Below are positions 1,670 to 22,586 of a stretch of 39,072 bases of DNA, piece by piece. The stretch covers positions 1 to 39,072 of the forward strand of contig JAFQHT010000017.1 of the NCBI GenBank assembly GCA_017397825.1. The letters are read 5' to 3'. This stretch comes from Bacillota bacterium (GTDB lineage: Bacteria; Bacillota; Clostridia; Peptostreptococcales; Anaerovoracaceae). Each line of letters opens with the position of its first letter. Positions within the stretch are counted from its first letter, which is position 1. Position numbers and translations under genes: made by a program. The notes below the pieces were generated by a model, which worked only from the letters and a program-made list of their open reading frames with translations, made no database searches and was not told the DNA's origin.

Positions 1670-2851
1670 ATGAACATCAGAGAACTGGCAGAAAAAAACA
1701 GAAACTACATAATCGAGCGCAGAAGATATTTTCATCAGCATCCTGAACTCAGCTTCCAGGAGTGGAAAACCACAGCAATTATCAAAAAAGACCTTGAAAG
1801 CATGGGCATAGAAGTGCAGACTTTCGGCGATCATCCGGGCTGCGTGGGCACTCTGGAAACAGGACGTCCCGGCAGAACCATCATGCTGAGAGCTGACATT
1901 GACGCTCTGCCGATACAGGAAAAAACAGGCCTTAAATTCGCATCTGAAAGACCGGGAATCATGCATGCCTGCGGTCACGACACCCATGCAGCAATGCTTC
2001 TTGGAGCTGCTAAAATCCTCAGCGAAATCAGGGACGAACTCAACGGTACAGTAAAATTCCTCTTTGAGTCAGGTGAAGAACTGGCTGAAGGGGCGGAATA
2101 TTACATAAGGGAACATGTGCTGGACGGTATAGATGCCATGTTCGGACTGCATATCTGGGGGACTTTTGATGCGCCGTATCTTTGCGTGGACAGCGGCAGA
2201 AGAATGGCCTCCTGTGATATTTTCAACATCAAGGTAAAGGGCGTACAGGCGCATGGCTCCGCACCTCACCTTGGCAAGGATGCCATCGTCGCATCAGCTG
2301 CGATTATCACAGCAATACAGACTTATGTGAGCAGAGTCAATGACCCTACCAACCCTCTCGTAGTGACCGTCGGCAAAATCAGCGGCGGCCAGCGTTACAA
2401 TATAATCTGCGGTGAAGTGGACATGGAAGGAACCATCAGAACCTATTCCACAGAACTCCGCGAAAAGATGGGCGCAACTCTGGGCCAGATTATCAAAGAT
2501 ACTGCCAGGGCTTACGGCTGCAGTGCTGAATTCAATCTGAACCTGAAGCATCCTGCAGTTGTAAACGAAGACCCTGAACTCAGTGAAATTGCAAGAAGAG
2601 CAGCCATTGAGCTTTACGGTGAAGAGGGAATCAGACCGATGACCAATGTTATGGCATCTGAAGATTTCTCCATGTTCATGCAGAAAGTTCCGGGCTTCTT
2701 CGGTTTTGTGGGTGCCCGCAATGTTAAAAAAGGAATCAACTATTCCAACCACAATGACAAGTTTACAGTGGACGAAGACTCCCTGGAAAGAGGCGCAGCG
2801 CTTGAAGCACAGTTTGCGCTGGATTACCTGAGAAATAAGGACAGTAAATGA
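1670..2851 (+). CDS. M20D family amidohydrolase (N-acyl-amino-acid/hippurate hydrolase type)
   Basis: A 393-aa zinc amidohydrolase of the M20D family (hippurate hydrolase, N-acetyl-diaminopimelate deacetylase, IAA-amino acid hydrolase group). Family hallmarks are visible: FHQHPELSFQE near residue 21, RADIDALP at 74-81, the metal-binding CGHDTH at 101-106, the catalytic glutamate pair in ESGEE at 133-137, and MASEDFSMF plus a late histidine near the C-terminus. No signal peptide is present, so it acts in the cytoplasm on N-acylated amino acids or short conjugates; the exact substrate cannot be read. Its stop overlaps the start of the MATE transporter gene (ATGA), which implies translational coupling and a shared role in processing and exporting a small molecule. 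Confidence 0.88.
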   Translation: MNIRELAEKNRNYIIERRRYFHQHPELSFQEWKTTAIIKKDLESMGIEVQTFGDHPGCVGTLETGRPGRTIMLRADIDALPIQEKTGLKFASERPGIMHACGHDTHAAMLLGAAKILSEIRDELNGTVKFLFESGEELAEGAEYYIREHVLDGIDAMFGLHIWGTFDAPYLCVDSGRRMASCDIFNIKVKGVQAHGSAPHLGKDAIVASAAIITAIQTYVSRVNDPTNPLVVTVGKISGGQRYNIICGEVDMEGTIRTYSTELREKMGATLGQIIKDTARAYGCSAEFNLNLKHPAVVNEDPELSEIARRAAIELYGEEGIRPMTNVMASEDFSMFMQKVPGFFGFVGARNVKKGINYSNHNDKFTVDEDSLERGAALEAQFALDYLRNKDSK

Positions 2852-11243: not shown

Positions 11244-12527
11244 TTGAACAAACCAATTTTAGATACAATTAAAGAAACCTGCGAAATTTTCGAAAAATAT
11301 GAACTGACCAAAGGCGAGCTGGCCCGTGCAGAGGAACTTGCGTACAAGCTGGAAAACCAGAAAATCACTGTTTCCGTAATCGGACAGTTCAAGCGCGGCA
11401 AATCCACTCTGGTAAACGCAATCCTTCAGGACAAAATCCTGCCGGTAGGCATTGTGCCTGTAACTGCAGTAGTTACAACCATCGAATACGGCGAAAAGGC
11501 TGCAACCGTTCATTTCAGCAACGGTATCATCAAGGAAATTTCCTTCGATGAAATGTCATCCTTTATCAACGAGCAGGAAAACCAGGACAACCACCTTGGC
11601 GTTTCACAGGTTGCTCTTTACTGCCCGGCAGATTTCCTGGCAGGAGGCATGACTTTCGTGGACACACCGGGCGTAGGCTCCGTGCACCAGAAAAATACTG
11701 ACGAAGCATATTCCTATGTAAAGGAAAGTGATGCTGTAATTTTCATGCTTTCTGTGGACAGCCCGATTAATCAGATTGAAATCGACTTCCTGAAAAATGC
11801 CAAGGAATACGCGTCCAAGTTCTATTTCGCAATCAACAAAATCGACTCTATCGACGAAGACGATCTTGCTGACTACCTTGCATACTGCAGAAACCTTATC
11901 TGCAAGCTGATGGATGCGGATGATATCAACCTTTTCCCTGTCAGTGCCAAGAAAAACATCGGTATCGATGAACTGAAGACAGCAATCCTGGAAGACTGCC
12001 AGACTACAGTAAAGGACATTATCGCAGATTCCGCGAAGCTGAAGATGCGCGACATTGTTGCAAGCGCTCTTTCTCAGATCACTCTTTACAGAACAGCGCT
12101 CCAGCTTACCCATAAGGAATTTGACGAAAAATTCGCCGAAATTGAAGCAATGTTTGCTGAGGTTCAGGCGGAAGCCGCAGAGTTTGCAGAACATTTCAGA
12201 AGTAATCCGAGAATGCTGGAAGCTCACATGAACGACATAAAGAATCAGCTCAGTGCCAAGGTTTCAGAGCTTTTCGGCATCGAGTACCACTATAACATCA
12301 GTACTGTGGACTTTTTCCGCGGGGGAGTGGCCTGCGAAGACGGCAGCCGTGACCTGCGCGAAAGCTTCACTGCAGCAGTGGGCGAGCTCTGTGCGGATCT
12401 TAAAGAAACCCTCATGGCAATCTTCATGCACCGCGAAGAAAACGCCTACAAGGTGGCCCGCCGCATCAACGACCTTAACCGTCTGGTGCGTAAGCTTGTG
12501 CAGCTGAGGGGCGAACTGGCTGAGTAG
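11244..12527 (+). CDS. Dynamin-like GTPase (short form)
   Basis: A 427-aa large GTPase of the bacterial dynamin-like group. G1 is GQFKRGKST (about 47-55), G3 is DTPGVGSV (about 139), and G4 is NKID (about 198). The part after the G domain is rich in helices with heptad patterns (HKEFDEKFAEIEAMFAEVQ) and ends in a basic helix. Bacterial dynamins are usually 550-700 aa with a lipid-inserting paddle; here no hydrophobic paddle is visible, so membrane remodelling may need a partner. The start is TTG after AGAGG, six bases behind the M20 peptidase stop. Dynamin-like proteins act in membrane repair, vesicle release and, in some bacteria, phage resistance. The next locus is a candidate toxin-antitoxin system, but a large intergenic gap with its own promoters separates them. 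Confidence 0.82.
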   Translation: MNKPILDTIKETCEIFEKYELTKGELARAEELAYKLENQKITVSVIGQFKRGKSTLVNAILQDKILPVGIVPVTAVVTTIEYGEKAATVHFSNGIIKEISFDEMSSFINEQENQDNHLGVSQVALYCPADFLAGGMTFVDTPGVGSVHQKNTDEAYSYVKESDAVIFMLSVDSPINQIEIDFLKNAKEYASKFYFAINKIDSIDEDDLADYLAYCRNLICKLMDADDINLFPVSAKKNIGIDELKTAILEDCQTTVKDIIADSAKLKMRDIVASALSQITLYRTALQLTHKEFDEKFAEIEAMFAEVQAEAAEFAEHFRSNPRMLEAHMNDIKNQLSAKVSELFGIEYHYNISTVDFFRGGVACEDGSRDLRESFTAAVGELCADLKETLMAIFMHREENAYKVARRINDLNRLVRKLVQLRGELAE

Positions 12528-12544
12528 GTTTATATGCAGAAATG

Positions 12545-12576
12545 TGTCGAATTATGCTGTAACATGTCGGAATTAT
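12545..12576. promoter_or_regulatory. Direct repeat upstream of the small-RNA promoter
   Basis: TGTCGAATTAT (12545-12555) and TGTCGGAATTAT (12565-12576) begin 20 bp apart, two turns of the helix, just before the -35 at 12581. This spacing suits an activator binding as a tandem dimer. The first copy contains TGTCGAA, the Spo0A-box core. Confidence 0.4.
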
Positions 12577-12580
12577 AAAG

Positions 12581-12609
12581 TTGACATGCAACACACGTAA
12601 ATGTAAAAT
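12581..12609 (+). promoter_or_regulatory. Sigma-A promoter P1 of the repeat RNA
   Basis: Perfect -35 TTGACA (12581-12586), 17-bp spacer, -10 TAAAAT (12604-12609). The -10 lies inside a palindrome ATGTAAA-ATA-TTTACAT (12601-12617), which could be an operator. Confidence 0.7.
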
Positions 12610-12617
12610 ATTTACAT
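12601..12617. promoter_or_regulatory. Palindrome over the P1 -10 element
   Basis: Exact 7-bp arms (ATGTAAA / TTTACAT) with a 3-bp centre overlap the -10 of P1. A repressor bound here would block P1 but not P2. The XRE protein at 13461-13793 is the nearest candidate. Confidence 0.4.
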
Positions 12618-12646
12618 AAAATATTATAATAATTACGTGCAAAAAG

Positions 12647-12675
12647 TTGATTTTTCTATTCCGATTGAGTATAAT
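12647..12675 (+). promoter_or_regulatory. Sigma-A promoter P2 of the repeat RNA
   Basis: -35 TTGATT (12647-12652), 17-bp spacer, consensus -10 TATAAT (12670-12675). Transcription would start near 12682, giving an RNA of about 190 nt that ends at the terminator at 12840-12873. Confidence 0.75.
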
Positions 12676-12721
12676 AAGAGCAAGGGAAGGTGAACCCATT
12701 TCACCGGTGTGGTCGACACCT

Positions 12722-12833
12722 AAAATCCGAAATCGAAGCAGAACGAACGGGTCTGCAGTTGGCGGACAACAGAAAAATCCGAAATCGGAGCAGGATAAAC
12801 AGGCCTGCGGTTGGCGGACAACAGAAAAATCGG
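12722..12833 (+). repeat. 52-bp tandem repeat, two copies plus a partial third
   Basis: Copy 1 is 12722-12773 and copy 2 is 12774-12825; they match at 45 of 52 positions. A third copy starts (AAAATCGG, 12826-12833) and breaks off before the terminator. The AAAATCCGAAATCG start and GTTGGCGGACAACAGA end are invariant; changes cluster in the loop of the first stem. Confidence 0.9.
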
Positions 12834-12839
12834 TCGTAT

Positions 12840-12873
12840 GAGATCTTGCACTATGTGCAGGGTCTCTTTTTTT
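12840..12873 (+). terminator. Intrinsic terminator between repeat RNA and PBECR4-like gene
   Basis: A 12-bp stem (GAGATCTTGCAC / GTGCAGGGTCTC, with G-U pairs) and a TAT loop are followed by seven T. It lies directly before the toxin-like gene, so only read-through transcripts would reach it, as in type III toxin-antitoxin operons. Confidence 0.88.
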
Positions 12874-12885
12874 ATGGTGGGTATG

Positions 12886-13422
12886 ATGGAGAAAAAAGAT
12901 GCTGTAGAAGTGATTATAAAATGTGCCAGATTGTATAAAGATAATCTGGCCGGCAAGATATTGTTATTAGTGTGTAAAGACAAGAACGGAAATGAAGAGT
13001 CTGTCGAATTGCATTTTGATGGCAGTAATTTTTTACATCTGACAGGGTGCAGAGCAAAAGATGGCCTTACAGCCAAATCATTTTACAGGAAATGCTTATC
13101 AAAAAAATTGAGTATAAATGATTTTGAAATGGCTGAAGACGGGACTACTGTACTGAAGCTTAAGGTTCTTCCCGCTCTTATGGAAAAAGGTCTATCTGCT
13201 AAAATGATTGGTGATTATGATGGCCGTCAGCCAAGATTATATACTGACAAACTGGCGGGTAATATAAGGGGATGTATGGGGTTCAAAGAGGTAATTCCCG
13301 GAAAATATGTGCCGAATACCGTACTAAATGTTGATATCAGAAAACAAGCGATAAATGTAAAGAAAGTAACAGGAATTTATATCAGAAATAAAGGTGAAAC
13401 AGAATTTAAAAGAATCCTGTAA
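12886..13422 (+). CDS. PBECR4-like protein, candidate type III toxin (endoribonuclease)
   Basis: A 178-aa soluble protein recognised from memory as the PBECR4 family, one of the phage-associated Barnase-EndoU-ColicinE5/D-RelE-like nuclease groups. Conserved-looking blocks are NFLHLTG (48-54, His51), a DF..AEDGTTVLKLKVLP stretch (79-96), YTDKLAGN (119-126) and YVPNTVLNVDIR (141-152). No signal or membrane segment is present, so it would act in the cytoplasm, presumably cutting RNA. The start is taken as ATG 12886 after GGTGGG; ATG 12883 is also possible. It begins 12 bp after the T-run of the repeat-RNA terminator and is followed by its own terminator. It is more AT-rich than its neighbours, suggesting transfer. 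The nuclease activity and the antitoxin link are inference. Confidence 0.72.
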   Translation: MEKKDAVEVIIKCARLYKDNLAGKILLLVCKDKNGNEESVELHFDGSNFLHLTGCRAKDGLTAKSFYRKCLSKKLSINDFEMAEDGTTVLKLKVLPALMEKGLSAKMIGDYDGRQPRLYTDKLAGNIRGCMGFKEVIPGKYVPNTVLNVDIRKQAINVKKVTGIYIRNKGETEFKRIL

Positions 13423-13429
13423 ACTATAA

Positions 13430-13459
13430 AGAGACTCTTTTCGTAAGGGTCTCTTTTTT
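13430..13459. terminator. Terminator between the PBECR4-like gene and the XRE gene
   Basis: A 10-bp stem (AGAGACTCTT / AAGGGTCTCT, one G-U pair) is followed by five T on the plus strand, with A-rich sequence on the other side giving some two-way function. Its right arm GGGTCTCTTTTTT is nearly the same as that of the terminator before the toxin-like gene. Confidence 0.85.
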
Positions 13460-13460
13460 A

Positions 13461-13793
13461 CTACATATTCTTATCAAATGACATTTTAGCAGCCCTGACG
13501 ATGTCTTCGATTATTCTGATCTGCTGTGTGGTGCAGCGGATGAGAAGCTGGTTGATTTCGTCCAGGGAAGTGCTGCGTACGGCAGGGTTTTCGTCGTAGA
13601 GCAGATCGTCGGTACGGACTTCAAGTGCCTGCGCAATATCGACAAAAACCGACAGGCTCAGCTTGGTATTGCCGGTTTCAATGTGACTCATGTGAGTGTT
13701 GGAAATGCCCACTTTTTCGGCCAGCTGGTCCTGTGACATGCCGCGTGCTTTTCTGATTTTTCTTATTCTTTGACCAATTTCGTAATAATTCAT
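13461..13793 (-). CDS. XRE family transcriptional regulator
   Basis: A 110-aa regulator with a typical helix-turn-helix of the Cro/C1 type at about residues 7-62 (RIRKIRKARGMSQDQLAEKV, then SNTHMSHIETGNTKLSL). A short C-terminal helix (about 75-110) may serve for dimer formation. It is convergent with the PBECR4-like gene, sharing the terminator between them, and divergent from the large surface-protein gene, whose promoter region it could control. Tandem ACTTA-type motifs between the two starts (about 13809-13828) are possible binding sites. A role in the toxin-antitoxin-like locus is possible but not shown by the sequence. Confidence 0.9.
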   Translation of the reverse strand: MNYYEIGQRIRKIRKARGMSQDQLAEKVGISNTHMSHIETGNTKLSLSVFVDIAQALEVRTDDLLYDENPAVRSTSLDEINQLLIRCTTQQIRIIEDIVRAAKMSFDKNM

Positions 13794-19920: not shown

Positions 19921-21267
19921 ATGAAAGAGTTTATTAAAAAGTTTACGGCGATTTCAATGTGTCTGATATTGGCAGCCGGTCTTGCAGCCTGCGGTCACGG
20001 GTATGGTACAGACGGCCCGCTGGAGGAACAGATTAACATAGAAGAAGGGGATAATATGGACGGAAAAGACGGCAAAACACTTAAACTAATTGACGAAGCC
20101 TGGGCAGCAGAGGATAGCAGCGATGCTTACTCTACCCTTGAAAACCTGCAGAACGTAACGGAGCAGGTGCATGACCTTTCCATGGAATTATTAATGAAGG
20201 GCATGCAGGAAGGAACCAGCAGCATGATTTCACCGGTTTCTATCCTCATGGCCATGGCCATGGTCGAAAACGGCGCCTCCGGAGTAAGTCTTGAGCAGAT
20301 GGAGGAAGCTTTCGGCTGCGATGCAGAGTCTCTTTCTCTGTGGCTCAGAGCATGGAAAAGTTCCCTCAGAACCAGCGAAGACACCAATATGAATGTGGCC
20401 AATTCTTTCTGGTTCAGAGACTCTGAGTCTCTCCAGGTGAAGGAAGAATACCTGAAAACAATCAGCAGTATGCTGGATGCTCAGGCATACAAGTCTGCTT
20501 TCAATCAGGGGACTGCAGATGATATGAACCAGTGGTGCGACGACAACACCTACGGAATGATAAAGAAGATAATCAACACTCTTACTCCGCAGGATATGAC
20601 AGTTCTTCTGAATGCCACAGCCTTTGAGGGGGTCTGGGAAGAGCCTTATGAAGAGTACCAGATCCATGAGGATGAGGTGTTTACCAAGGAAGACGGCACT
20701 GAAGAAAATGCTGTCATGATGTACTCACGAGAGGGTGTTTACATGGAAAATGACCAGCTTACCGGCTTCAGAAAGCCTTACAAGGATGGATACAGTTTCG
20801 TAGCTCTTCTGCCGTGTGATGGCCTGAGTGTGGCAGACTGTGCCAGAGGTCTGGACGGAGAAGCCTGGCGCGGTCTCATAAGCAGCGCGCGCAGCGAAAA
20901 AGTAAATGCTGTTATTCCTGAATTCACATCTGCGTTCCGGATGGATAATCTGATTCAGGTGTTCAGCGATATGGGTATTACTGATATTTTCGCACCGGAT
21001 AAGGCAGACCTTTCTGCCATGGCAGAGCTTGATGGCGGCCAGCCGCTCTTTGTCAGCGGCATAATTCACAAGACTTTTATTGAAGTCAACAGAAAGGGCA
21101 CCAGGGCTGCAGCGGTAACAGGAATCAAGGTGGGGACTACTGCATTCATGCCCGAAAAAATTTACGATGTCCGTCTGGACAGACCTTTTATATACGCAAT
21201 CGTTGATGATGCTACCAATACCCCGATGTTTATCGGGACTACAATGAGCGTGGCAGCAGAACAGTAG
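19921..21267 (+). CDS. Serpin family lipoprotein (first of two)
   Basis: A 448-aa serpin, a suicide inhibitor of serine or cysteine proteases. A lipoprotein signal ends in LAAC (Cys24), so the inhibitor is anchored on the outer face of the membrane. Serpin core features include SPVSILMAMAMV, NSFWFRDS, LNATAFEGVWEEPY and the C-terminal DRPFIYAIVDD...MFIGT. The reactive-centre loop begins at the hinge KGTRAAAVTG with small residues at P12-P9, the hallmark of inhibitory serpins. Counting from the hinge places the scissile bond near GTT-AFM, only an estimate. The gene is third in the sigma/anti-sigma/serpin operon, starting after AAAGGAG. Confidence 0.93.
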   Translation: MKEFIKKFTAISMCLILAAGLAACGHGYGTDGPLEEQINIEEGDNMDGKDGKTLKLIDEAWAAEDSSDAYSTLENLQNVTEQVHDLSMELLMKGMQEGTSSMISPVSILMAMAMVENGASGVSLEQMEEAFGCDAESLSLWLRAWKSSLRTSEDTNMNVANSFWFRDSESLQVKEEYLKTISSMLDAQAYKSAFNQGTADDMNQWCDDNTYGMIKKIINTLTPQDMTVLLNATAFEGVWEEPYEEYQIHEDEVFTKEDGTEENAVMMYSREGVYMENDQLTGFRKPYKDGYSFVALLPCDGLSVADCARGLDGEAWRGLISSARSEKVNAVIPEFTSAFRMDNLIQVFSDMGITDIFAPDKADLSAMAELDGGQPLFVSGIIHKTFIEVNRKGTRAAAVTGIKVGTTAFMPEKIYDVRLDRPFIYAIVDDATNTPMFIGTTMSVAAEQ

Positions 21268-21284
21268 CAAAAGGAGGGGTAAAC

Positions 21285-22586
21285 ATGAGAATTTTAAAGA
21301 AAATTTTGTGCCTTGCAATGTCGGCACTGATGATTTTTTCCATGGCAGCCTGCGGCGGTGGCAGCGGAAGCAGTGTTCTGCCATCTATAGGCGGCCAGTC
21401 AGGGGAGACTGTGGAGCTGACGGCAGATGTGGGACTCAGTGCAACGCCTCTGGCTCCGGACAGGTACTGCCCGGTAGGCGAGTATGAAAGTATACGTGCC
21501 ATGGCAATGAAGCTTTTTAAAGAAACTGCCAAGCTCAGCGAAGAGGAAAACCTGCTGATTTCACCGGTTTCAATTATGACAGCTCTTGCAATGGCTGCAC
21601 AGGGGGCAGAGGCAGAGACCCTGCAGCAGTTTGAGGAAGCCTTCGGCAAAGATGCTGTATTCTTTGCGACTCTTATGTCCGATTATGCTGACACAATTAC
21701 CATGCATAACGAAACTGCAAAGGTGAATATTGCAAACTCTGTATGGATCCGTGATGATGAAGAGCGGCTGACGGTGAAAGAAAATTTTTTGGCCAAGTGC
21801 AATAATATGAGGGCAGTGGCTTTCAGATCAGCTTTCAACAAGGGCACAGTCCGCGACATAAACAAGTGGGTTGAAGAAAACACCGATGGTATGATTGATT
21901 CAATTATTGATGACATTCCGGATGCTGCGGTAATGTACCTTATCAATGCTCTGTCATTTGATAATGAGTGGGAACGCAAATATGAAGGATATCAGCTCCG
22001 CGACGGAACTTTTACTGCTGCGGATGGTGAGAAACAGAAGGCAGAATTCATGTATTCAGGCGAAAATGTTTTCCTGAAAGATGACAAGGCCACAGGCTTT
22101 ATCAAGCCTTATAAAGATGATTTCAGTTTTGTGGCAATCCTTCCTGACGAAGGGGTGAGTGTTGAAGAATATATAGCCGGAATGGACGAAAATACTCTGT
22201 CCGACCTTGTGGAAGGAGGAAAGGATGCTGAGTATGTAAGCACTGGTCTGCCTAAGTTTACAAATGCTGCGTCGGAAAATCTGGTGCCTGTGCTGGAAAC
22301 CATGGGTATGAGTGAAATGTTTGACGAAACTGATGCGGATTTCGGCGCCATGGCAACATCTGCCCGCGGCAATATTTTCATTATGAAAGTTGCCCACAAA
22401 GCCTTCATCGAAGTAGACAGCAATGGCACACGCGCAGCTGCGGCAACTATAATGGAAGCCGGTGACGGTGCGTCACCTGTAATGGAAGAGGTAATTCTCA
22501 ACCGTCCGTTCATCTACATGATTGTAGACGACTATGCCAACGAAAGTCTGCCGCTTTTCATCGGCACTGTGGAAACCATGGAGTAA
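21285..22586 (+). CDS. Serpin family lipoprotein (second of two)
   Basis: A 433-aa serpin, paralogous to the preceding gene with which it shares SPVSIMTALAMA, NSVWIRDDE, INALSFDNEWERKYEGYQ and NRPFIYMIVDD. A lipoprotein signal ends in MAAC (Cys23). The hinge NGTRAAAATI is again of the inhibitory type, but the reactive loop that follows (MEAGDGASPVMEEV) differs fully from that of the first serpin. The estimated scissile bond is near DG-AS. The two paralogues therefore probably block different proteases. It starts 17 bp after the first serpin, behind AAAGGAGGGG. Confidence 0.93.
   Translation: MRILKKILCLAMSALMIFSMAACGGGSGSSVLPSIGGQSGETVELTADVGLSATPLAPDRYCPVGEYESIRAMAMKLFKETAKLSEEENLLISPVSIMTALAMAAQGAEAETLQQFEEAFGKDAVFFATLMSDYADTITMHNETAKVNIANSVWIRDDEERLTVKENFLAKCNNMRAVAFRSAFNKGTVRDINKWVEENTDGMIDSIIDDIPDAAVMYLINALSFDNEWERKYEGYQLRDGTFTAADGEKQKAEFMYSGENVFLKDDKATGFIKPYKDDFSFVAILPDEGVSVEEYIAGMDENTLSDLVEGGKDAEYVSTGLPKFTNAASENLVPVLETMGMSEMFDETDADFGAMATSARGNIFIMKVAHKAFIEVDSNGTRAAAATIMEAGDGASPVMEEVILNRPFIYMIVDDYANESLPLFIGTVETME

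Follow-up and report, generated by a model that had tools for sequence, protein, structure and literature searches.

A candidate type III-like toxin-antitoxin module in which a PBECR4-family gene follows a two-unit, pseudoknotted RNA

A 39,072-nt stretch of DNA from a Bacillota bacterium of the Anaerovoracaceae (assembly GCA_017397825.1, contig JAFQHT010000017.1; hereafter the window) carries a PBECR4-family gene directly behind a short repeat-containing RNA gene and a terminator. Is this RNA the antitoxin of its neighbor, as in type III toxin-antitoxin systems, or does it play another part? The locus was compared with PBECR4 loci from Clostridia, other bacteria, plasmids and phages, and we consider it likely to be a toxin-antitoxin module of two parts, an RNA and a protein, which operates in the manner of type III systems with the PBECR4 ribonuclease as the toxin. 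The evidence lies in pseudoknots with compensating changes, in an RNA class that follows the protein tree, and in RNA copies that lie apart from any PBECR4 gene.

The RNA and the gene in the window

Two promoter-like sites open the region 12581–13460; they are followed by an RNA gene built around two 52-nt units, then a terminator, the PBECR4 gene and a second terminator (Table 1). An earlier note, made from the letters alone, had read the region as two sigma-A promoters, an RNA of 52-nt tandem repeats, a terminator, a 178-aa PBECR4-family gene and a further terminator. The gene and both terminators were recovered; the consensus scan did not pick up the second terminator. Promoter-like sites were present where promoters had been claimed, and the RNA start is predicted near 12682 from the proximal one, but a scan of 12400–13520 on both strands gave 4 such sites vs. 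2.9 (standard deviation 1.8) in shuffles, so the sites alone prove little. The repeat was also found, at 12722–12831 (period 52, 2.1 copies, 87% matches by Tandem Repeats Finder, TRF; the top score among five tandem arrays listed for the window), but the transcript is more than repeats: it also includes, on either side of the two units, a 5' hairpin, a hairpin termed H0 and a 3' segment. The fold of 12682–12873 was 3.5 standard deviations below dinucleotide shuffles, with 0/200 shuffles equally stable. No Rfam family reached its gathering score anywhere in the window and sub-threshold matches in 12500–13500 were unconvincing, so the RNA was rejected as a known family; drum (RF02958) in particular had no match at gathering in the window, nor at E ≤ 10 in 12500–13500.

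The 178-aa product matched PF18813 (PBECR4) at E = 2.3e-27 (97 bits, cut-off 27), with no other Pfam family at E ≤ 1, and the family named in the earlier note was the one found, with no ToxN-type family beside it. An alternative ATG at 12883 gives 179 aa (stop at 13422). A ToxN relative at the sequence level was rejected, as only PBECR4 was found in Pfam and no ToxN-type PDB chain with profiles A2 and A3, the comparison being made through Pfam and PDB profile searches and not against ToxN sequences directly. PBECR domains are described as predicted ribonucleases marked by a His in a helix and a C-terminal Ser/Thr (PMC5512222). In alignment A3, His51 was invariant (21/21 rows) and the position of Thr145 was S or T in 21/21 rows (read by eye), which makes these two residues candidates for catalysis. 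A second PBECR4 match was absent from the window's genome (82% complete assembly).

The window RNA and its relatives were designated class A. The class-A plan consists of H0, two units (5' segment, variable hairpin, GUUG/CAAC-type hairpin and A-run in each) and a 3' segment, and it is tied by three pseudoknots: loops 1 and 2, numbered after their units, each pair with the 5' segment of the opposite unit, and loop 0 of H0 with the 3' segment. These pairings were first noticed by reading loci and were then counted on alignments. Alignment A4 had 15 rows, of which 12 lay beside intact PBECR4 frames, 2 beside broken frames (L033, L065) and 1 was solitary (L063). The window itself (L001), L005 and L021 (near-copies of L004 and L020) and the more divergent L019, L060, L061, L062, L070, L071 and L072 (in A6 or A7) were left out of A4; L064 stands one base out of register there and counts against the structure. 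Across all eight helices of A4, 92.0% of cells were paired and 21/36 pairs had double changes; slid registers reached at most 49.8% paired, and 0/500 shuffles matched the cells paired, the double-changed pairs or cells, or the covariation score. For the two inter-unit helices, 0/500 shuffles reached the pairing (97.5% of cells), the changed cells or the score. A ToxI-like pseudoknot inside each unit was tried and rejected, at 73.3% paired vs. 75.1% shuffled.

A second alignment, A7, held 19 copies beside PBECR4 genes, 3 of these broken (L033, L065, L076), and was made by a model without pseudoknot helices; L091–L098 are in neither A4 nor A7. The three pseudoknot helices were paired in 95.2% of 252 cells, which count sequences and not events and are inflated by related rows; a slide control that preserves relatedness reached ≤37.2%. 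Double changes occurred in 13/14 pairs, with a covariation score of 0.498 vs. 0.229 shuffled. The covariance model R1, trained on 15 class-A RNAs, encodes their hairpins but none of the pseudoknots. R1 has two units and so favors two-unit RNAs; no class-A RNA with one or three units was seen. By eye, several class-A loci (among them L014, L059, L064 and L070) share a CTGCGG-like motif close to the apex of the terminator hairpin, and the window does not have it.

PBECR4 loci, RNA classes and co-inheritance

PBECR4 was found in 29/391 Clostridia-class genomes (31 rows), and 30 loci were read upstream, one row with two stops being left out. Class-A RNA lay upstream in eight (L001, L009, L014, L016, L019, L020, L021, L033). 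The R1 genome search recovered seven of these and missed L019 (G371), where the R1 match was weak (28.4 bits, E 0.0012–0.0019) and the pseudoknot pairs were present. Drum RNA scored above the Rfam cut-off in 11/30 loci (L007, L008, L010–L013, L018, L022–L024, L035), exactly at it (43.0) in one search of L031 and not reported in another, and below it in three (L034, 41.6 bits; L025, 34.4 bits; L026, 34.2 bits). L027 and L028 were drum-like by eye, resembling L026, and a drum search of L028 gave no match. None of the drum loci searched gave an R1 match at E ≤ 0.01, so the window RNA and drum are different families. Other RNA-like stretches, judged by eye, stood with a terminator-like hairpin in L015, L029, L030 and L032, and L017 was the only locus of the 30 without an RNA-like stretch upstream.

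All five further loci from a separate search were class A (L004 and L005 are near-copies), a relatives search added L037 (class A) and L038 (other), and a phylum sample had PBECR4 in 4/398 genomes, two of them new (L068, drum at 52.3 bits; L069, other). The expectation of the earlier note that homologues would also be accompanied by an RNA and a terminator was borne out, in that nearly all loci read have an adjoining structured RNA, most with a terminator-like hairpin. The terminator test was passed by 28/37 PBECR4 loci (25/34 excluding the near-copies L005, L021 and L023) vs. 20/97 other open reading frames of the same loci.

RNA class follows the PBECR4 protein tree, the two partners being inherited jointly. 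In a tree of 42 PBECR4 proteins, built by a quick method and with 19/39 inner branches open, class A vs. drum or drum-like required one change, and the four RNA classes required 4 changes vs. a shuffled mean of 17.4. The tree leaves out L005, L017, L021, L023, L024, L025, L033, L034, L035, L065, L098 and L099. Class A as a single clade was not rejected (p-AU 0.2). For ToxIN-type systems, RNA and protein are likewise reported to travel together (PMC5086642).

Upstream of the minus-strand PBECR4 gene of L029, two tandem H-type pseudoknots were seen by eye, a possible third RNA class. L003 is a Bacteroidales-labeled contig with a class-A module; on the tree its PBECR4 protein falls among those of Clostridia, by transfer or binning error.

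Solitary RNAs and mobile elements

In the same 391 genomes, R1 gave 18 matches in 16 genomes, 6 before intact PBECR4, 2 before broken PBECR4 (G268, G361), 9 without adjacent PBECR4 (G144, G235, G168, three in G249, G389, G068, G273) and 1 by chance; G168 and G249 have PBECR4 elsewhere in the genome. The chance match, L088 (G004), was to another tandem repeat (E 3.3e-4) and was dropped. Class-A RNA was also found in four IMG/VR phage contigs (6, 137, 123 and 42.5 kb) with no PBECR4 match in the record, these contigs being fragments that may miss genes. In L060, the RNA comes after terminase, portal, protease and head genes; its neighbors in L063 are an endolysin and a Doc-like gene, a DNA invertase-like gene is near it in L062, and L061 has a phage family of unknown function. 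Pseudoknots were paired in 93.3% of 178 cells across 13 copies without PBECR4 (6 from a single genus, 3 of these from the same genome; L087 retains unit 1 poorly), and their number of double-changed pairs was reached by 34/500 shuffles.

On a Ligilactobacillus plasmid (L093), the RNA (1735–1856, minus strand) is convergent with PBECR4, past the end of the gene (1680) and on the other strand. Because of this convergent copy and of solitary copies that mostly keep their pseudoknots, class-A RNA probably acts in trans. Drum RNA also occurs alone: of 20 drum matches in 291 genomes, ten (L043, L046, L047, L048, L052, L054–L058) were away from any PBECR4 place, and no PBECR4 was seen in the flanks of those ten.

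Several details of these RNAs were noted. In the L093 RNA, as judged by eye, the partners of both loops seem to lie downstream, and the molecule is closed by a GTTACG/CGTAAC stem. Genus g73 holds six solitary class-A RNAs (L083–L086, L089, L090; in G068, G168, three in G249, and G389), most with an enlarged loop 1; L089 is a second match within L084, and two of the three in G249 are about 0.5 kb apart. Five of the ten PBECR4-free drum RNAs are in one genome (G239), and some solitary drum RNAs lie near phage genes (a CHAP protein below cut-off, L052; a Mu F-like protein, L055). When relatives of the window, L006 and L013 proteins were sought in viral contigs, none was confirmed.

The pairing of class-A RNA with PBECR4 extends to Lactobacillales, Macrococcoides, Avibacterium and phages. 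R1 matched at E < 1e-4 beside PBECR4 in Erysipelothrix phage phi1605, Streptococcus phage Javan100 and an Enterococcus plasmid, and in 7/9 further PBECR4 loci (L091–L096, L098) from Avibacterium, Macrococcoides, Ligilactobacillus and Pediococcus plasmids and Lactococcus, Latilactobacillus and Enterococcus phages. L066 and L067 (R1 E 1.7 and 2.8) were dropped as chance short-pattern matches. In a plasmid collection, the Enterococcus-type RNA was present in 79 records and the protein at ≥80% identity in 79 (one only partial), these being two separate totals of near-clonal records; 55/77 plasmid records with PBECR4 matches were typed conjugative. The Avibacterium plasmid (4.3 kb) has, besides the RNA and PBECR4, replication, mobilization and sigma-70 region 4 proteins among its listed genes, a content that would suit the cargo expected of an addiction module.

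In the Lactococcus and Latilactobacillus phages (L095, L096, L097, L099), PBECR4 lies 1–2 annotated genes after an endolysin/amidase gene. In the Enterococcus phage (L098), three RatA antitoxin RNA matches (RF01776) were observed at 726–813, 1803–1888 and 2243–2328, near the PBECR4 module. A Methanobacterium plasmid record (L100:1547-1684) contains an RNA 97% identical to the Enterococcus type but lacks a PBECR4 frame directly after it; contamination or misassembly may account for this record.

Table 1. Positions of the module's features in the window and of solitary class-A RNAs in phage contigs
Feature	Position	Strand	Evidence
Upstream promoter-like site, TTGACA-17-TAAAAT	12581..12609	+	Consensus scan, 11/12 positions
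Proximal promoter-like site, TTGATT-17-TATAAT	12647..12675	+	Consensus scan, 10/12 positions
5' hairpin of RNA	12689..12705	+	Fold, z -4.0
Class-A RNA core: H0, two 52-nt units, 3' segment	12706..12836	+	TRF, covariation, R1 123.9 bits (window RNA is an R1 training sequence)
Loop 0 (GGTCGA), partner 12830-12835	12711..12716	+	A7 helix 1: 93.1% cells paired, double-sided changes in 5/6 pairs
Segment 1 (TCCG), partner loop 2 at 12815-12818	12726..12729	+	A7 helix 2: 97.3% cells paired, double-sided changes in 4/4 pairs
Hairpin H1, GTTG/CAAC	12758..12770	+	
Loop 1 (CGGA), partner segment 2 (12778-12781)	12763..12766	+	A7 helix 3: 96.1% cells paired, double-sided changes in 4/4 pairs
A-rich inter-unit linker AGAAAAA, predicted processing site	12771..12777	+	A-run conserved in A4
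Hairpin H2, GTTG/CAAC	12810..12822	+	Covariation (A4, A7)
Loop 2 (CGGA), partner segment 1	12815..12818	+	Covariation (A4, A7)
Segment 3 (TCGGTC), partner loop 0	12830..12835	+	Covariation (A7)
Intrinsic terminator at RNA/toxin-gene boundary	12840..12873	+	12 bp, 7 T, -18.1 kcal/mol, z -7.1; consensus scan too
PBECR4 gene, proposed toxin, 178 aa	12886..13422	+	PF18813, 97 bits
Second intrinsic terminator, 3' of PBECR4 gene	13428..13459	+	-14.8 kcal/mol, z -5.1
Solitary class-A RNAs in phage contigs, candidate antidotes	L060:3948-4086; L061:3194-3358; L062:809-952; L063:1122-1251		

Proposed mechanism, alternatives and known systems

We infer that PBECR4 is toxic, that the RNA neutralizes it and that the RNA is processed. 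From the layout, the terminator would stop most transcripts before the toxin gene and so leave the RNA in excess. The covariation supports an RNA that would fold as two similar units joined by reciprocal pseudoknots, with the H0 loop paired to the 3' tail; so folded, and perhaps cut by the toxin at its A-runs, it would bind PBECR4 and block the nuclease. ToxN-type toxins are described as cleaving A-rich sites (PMC5086642), hence processing may take place at the A-run that follows each unit. By analogy with type III systems, loss of the RNA, for instance on phage shut-off of host transcription or on plasmid loss, would free the ribonuclease to halt growth. In the sister PBECR4 clade, association and co-inheritance suggest that drum RNA may serve as the antitoxin. 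As a speculation, the two reciprocally paired units could form a closed RNA ring that bridges two toxin molecules; the numbers would then recall the CptIN heterotetramer (PMC5086642), although RNA-RNA pairing would hold this assembly together. It is quite possible, and is put forward only tentatively, that PBECR4 is a toxin superfamily with each clade held by its own RNA (reciprocal-pseudoknot ring or drum), and that toxin-free RNAs in phages and chromosomes are antidotes that disarm PBECR4 defense modules.

A number of results weigh against the toxin-antitoxin reading. The A-versus-drum split is a single evolutionary change and happened once, so there are few independent events behind the co-inheritance. 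Some of the covariation counts are matched by shuffles: the pair-type count of the eight A4 helices is reached by 44/500, the 5 double-changed pairs of the inter-unit helices by 88/500 and their pair types by 494/500, and the pair types of the solitary copies by 111/500. The terminator test is crude, because 223/740 mononucleotide shuffles also pass it. R1 was weak in L097 (E 0.014) and in L099 (E 0.037), where the PBECR4 gene is split. The window protein is about 25 residues shorter at the C-terminus than the other 12 rows of A2, so the window copy may be weakened or shortened. Searches by sequence with the window protein and with profiles A2 and A3 found no related PDB chain, which leaves the Pfam assignment as the basis for the BECR fold, and a PADLOC search with the window protein and 8 relatives returned no defense family except a marginal match for L030 (E 0.009). 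Solitary RNAs could also mean another role for the RNA.

Among such other roles, one in which the RNA activates or guides the PBECR4 nuclease instead of inhibiting it would sit well with the tight linkage and co-inheritance, which suit any obligate ribonucleoprotein. We nevertheless regard it as unlikely: phage copies without a PBECR4 match are more easily explained as inhibitors, the terminator layout is that of type III modules (as described in PMC5086642), and no guide-like stretch was noticed by eye, no search being aimed at one. Quite improbable is a cis-acting leader (riboswitch, attenuator or autoregulatory site) that merely controls read-through into PBECR4. The RNA does lie upstream with a terminator after it, in the window and in most loci tested, but a cis-only leader is disfavored by the solitary drum RNAs, by the PBECR4-free class-A RNAs in chromosomes and phage contigs, most with pseudoknots retained, and by the convergent opposite-strand copy in L093.

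The solitary copies, for example the six in genus g73, would also be expected of an independent small RNA that shares a neighborhood with PBECR4 through joint carriage on mobile elements. Adjacency across Clostridia, Bacilli, a Pasteurellaceae plasmid and phages, a terminator in between and an RNA class that tracks the protein tree make this highly improbable. An antisense (type I-like) regulator of PBECR4 mRNA could be imagined from the convergent RNA of L093; that RNA, however, lies beyond the gene end, and the other class-A and drum loci placed have the RNA upstream on the same strand, so that this explanation is hardly credible.

The preferred reading, a PBECR4 toxin held by its RNA, leaves the question of how the module relates to known systems. 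The earlier note had likened it to ToxIN, CptIN and TenpIN. The type III reading was supported by the comparison, and it is refined by the pseudoknots between units, the drum clade without tandem repeats and the toxin-free RNA copies. Tandem-unit RNA, terminator and ribonuclease-family gene follow one another as in type III systems, and the RNA is pseudoknotted. As far as PMC5086642 describes them, ToxIN, CptIN and TenpIN share the order of promoter, tandem-unit RNA, terminator and ribonuclease gene, the pseudoknotted RNA and A-rich linkers, and the occurrence on plasmids, phages and chromosomes; TenpI also has about two units of about 50 nt (PMC12373285). In contrast, the toxin here is PBECR4 (assigned BECR fold), theirs being of the MazF/Kid-like ToxN fold; pseudoknots form between the two units here and inside each unit in ToxI and CptI; and one PBECR4 clade has drum RNA and not tandem repeats. 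Its different toxin family and the inter-unit pairing of its RNA set the module apart from ToxIN, CptIN and TenpIN, of which it is not a member; it is best explained as type III-like by architecture.

The closest precedent comes from C. difficile, where abiF RNA is described as neutralizing the toxin AbiF through direct binding (PMC12373285), and as in the module proposed here a structured RNA with two motif copies lies ahead of a toxic protein, with a prophage-borne case of AbiF (PMC12373285). AbiF, however, belongs to the Abi_2/AbiD/F family and not to PBECR4, and the RNA motif differs. Drum RNA takes the upstream RNA place in the sister PBECR4 clade and is a family distinct from the window RNA. 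In open-licence PubMed Central, nothing among the matches listed linked PBECR4 or drum to a toxin-antitoxin system, and no reported function was found there for drum RNA. The drum and abiF motifs reportedly both come from one 2017 catalogue. The solitary phage RNAs resemble the pseudo-ToxI of phage phiTE, an antitoxin-like RNA whose phage lacks the toxin gene (PMC3475682), but unlike it the candidate phage RNAs mostly have both units. PBECR domains of phage polyvalent proteins also have solo versions in phages and mobile elements (PMC5512222); the excerpts of that paper propose mRNA or CRISPR RNA targets, with no RNA partner and without the name PBECR4.

If the toxin-antitoxin reading is true, a toxin family outside ToxN joins the RNA-neutralized systems, through a new antitoxin-RNA design with pairing between units instead of within them, and drum RNA gains a testable partner. 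Phage-borne RNA antidotes would be indicated, and proteins labeled only 'PBECR4 domain-containing' on Enterococcus and Lactobacillales plasmids would acquire a function.

Elsewhere in the window, at 19921–22586, two tandem proteins were judged by eye to be secreted-serpin-like.

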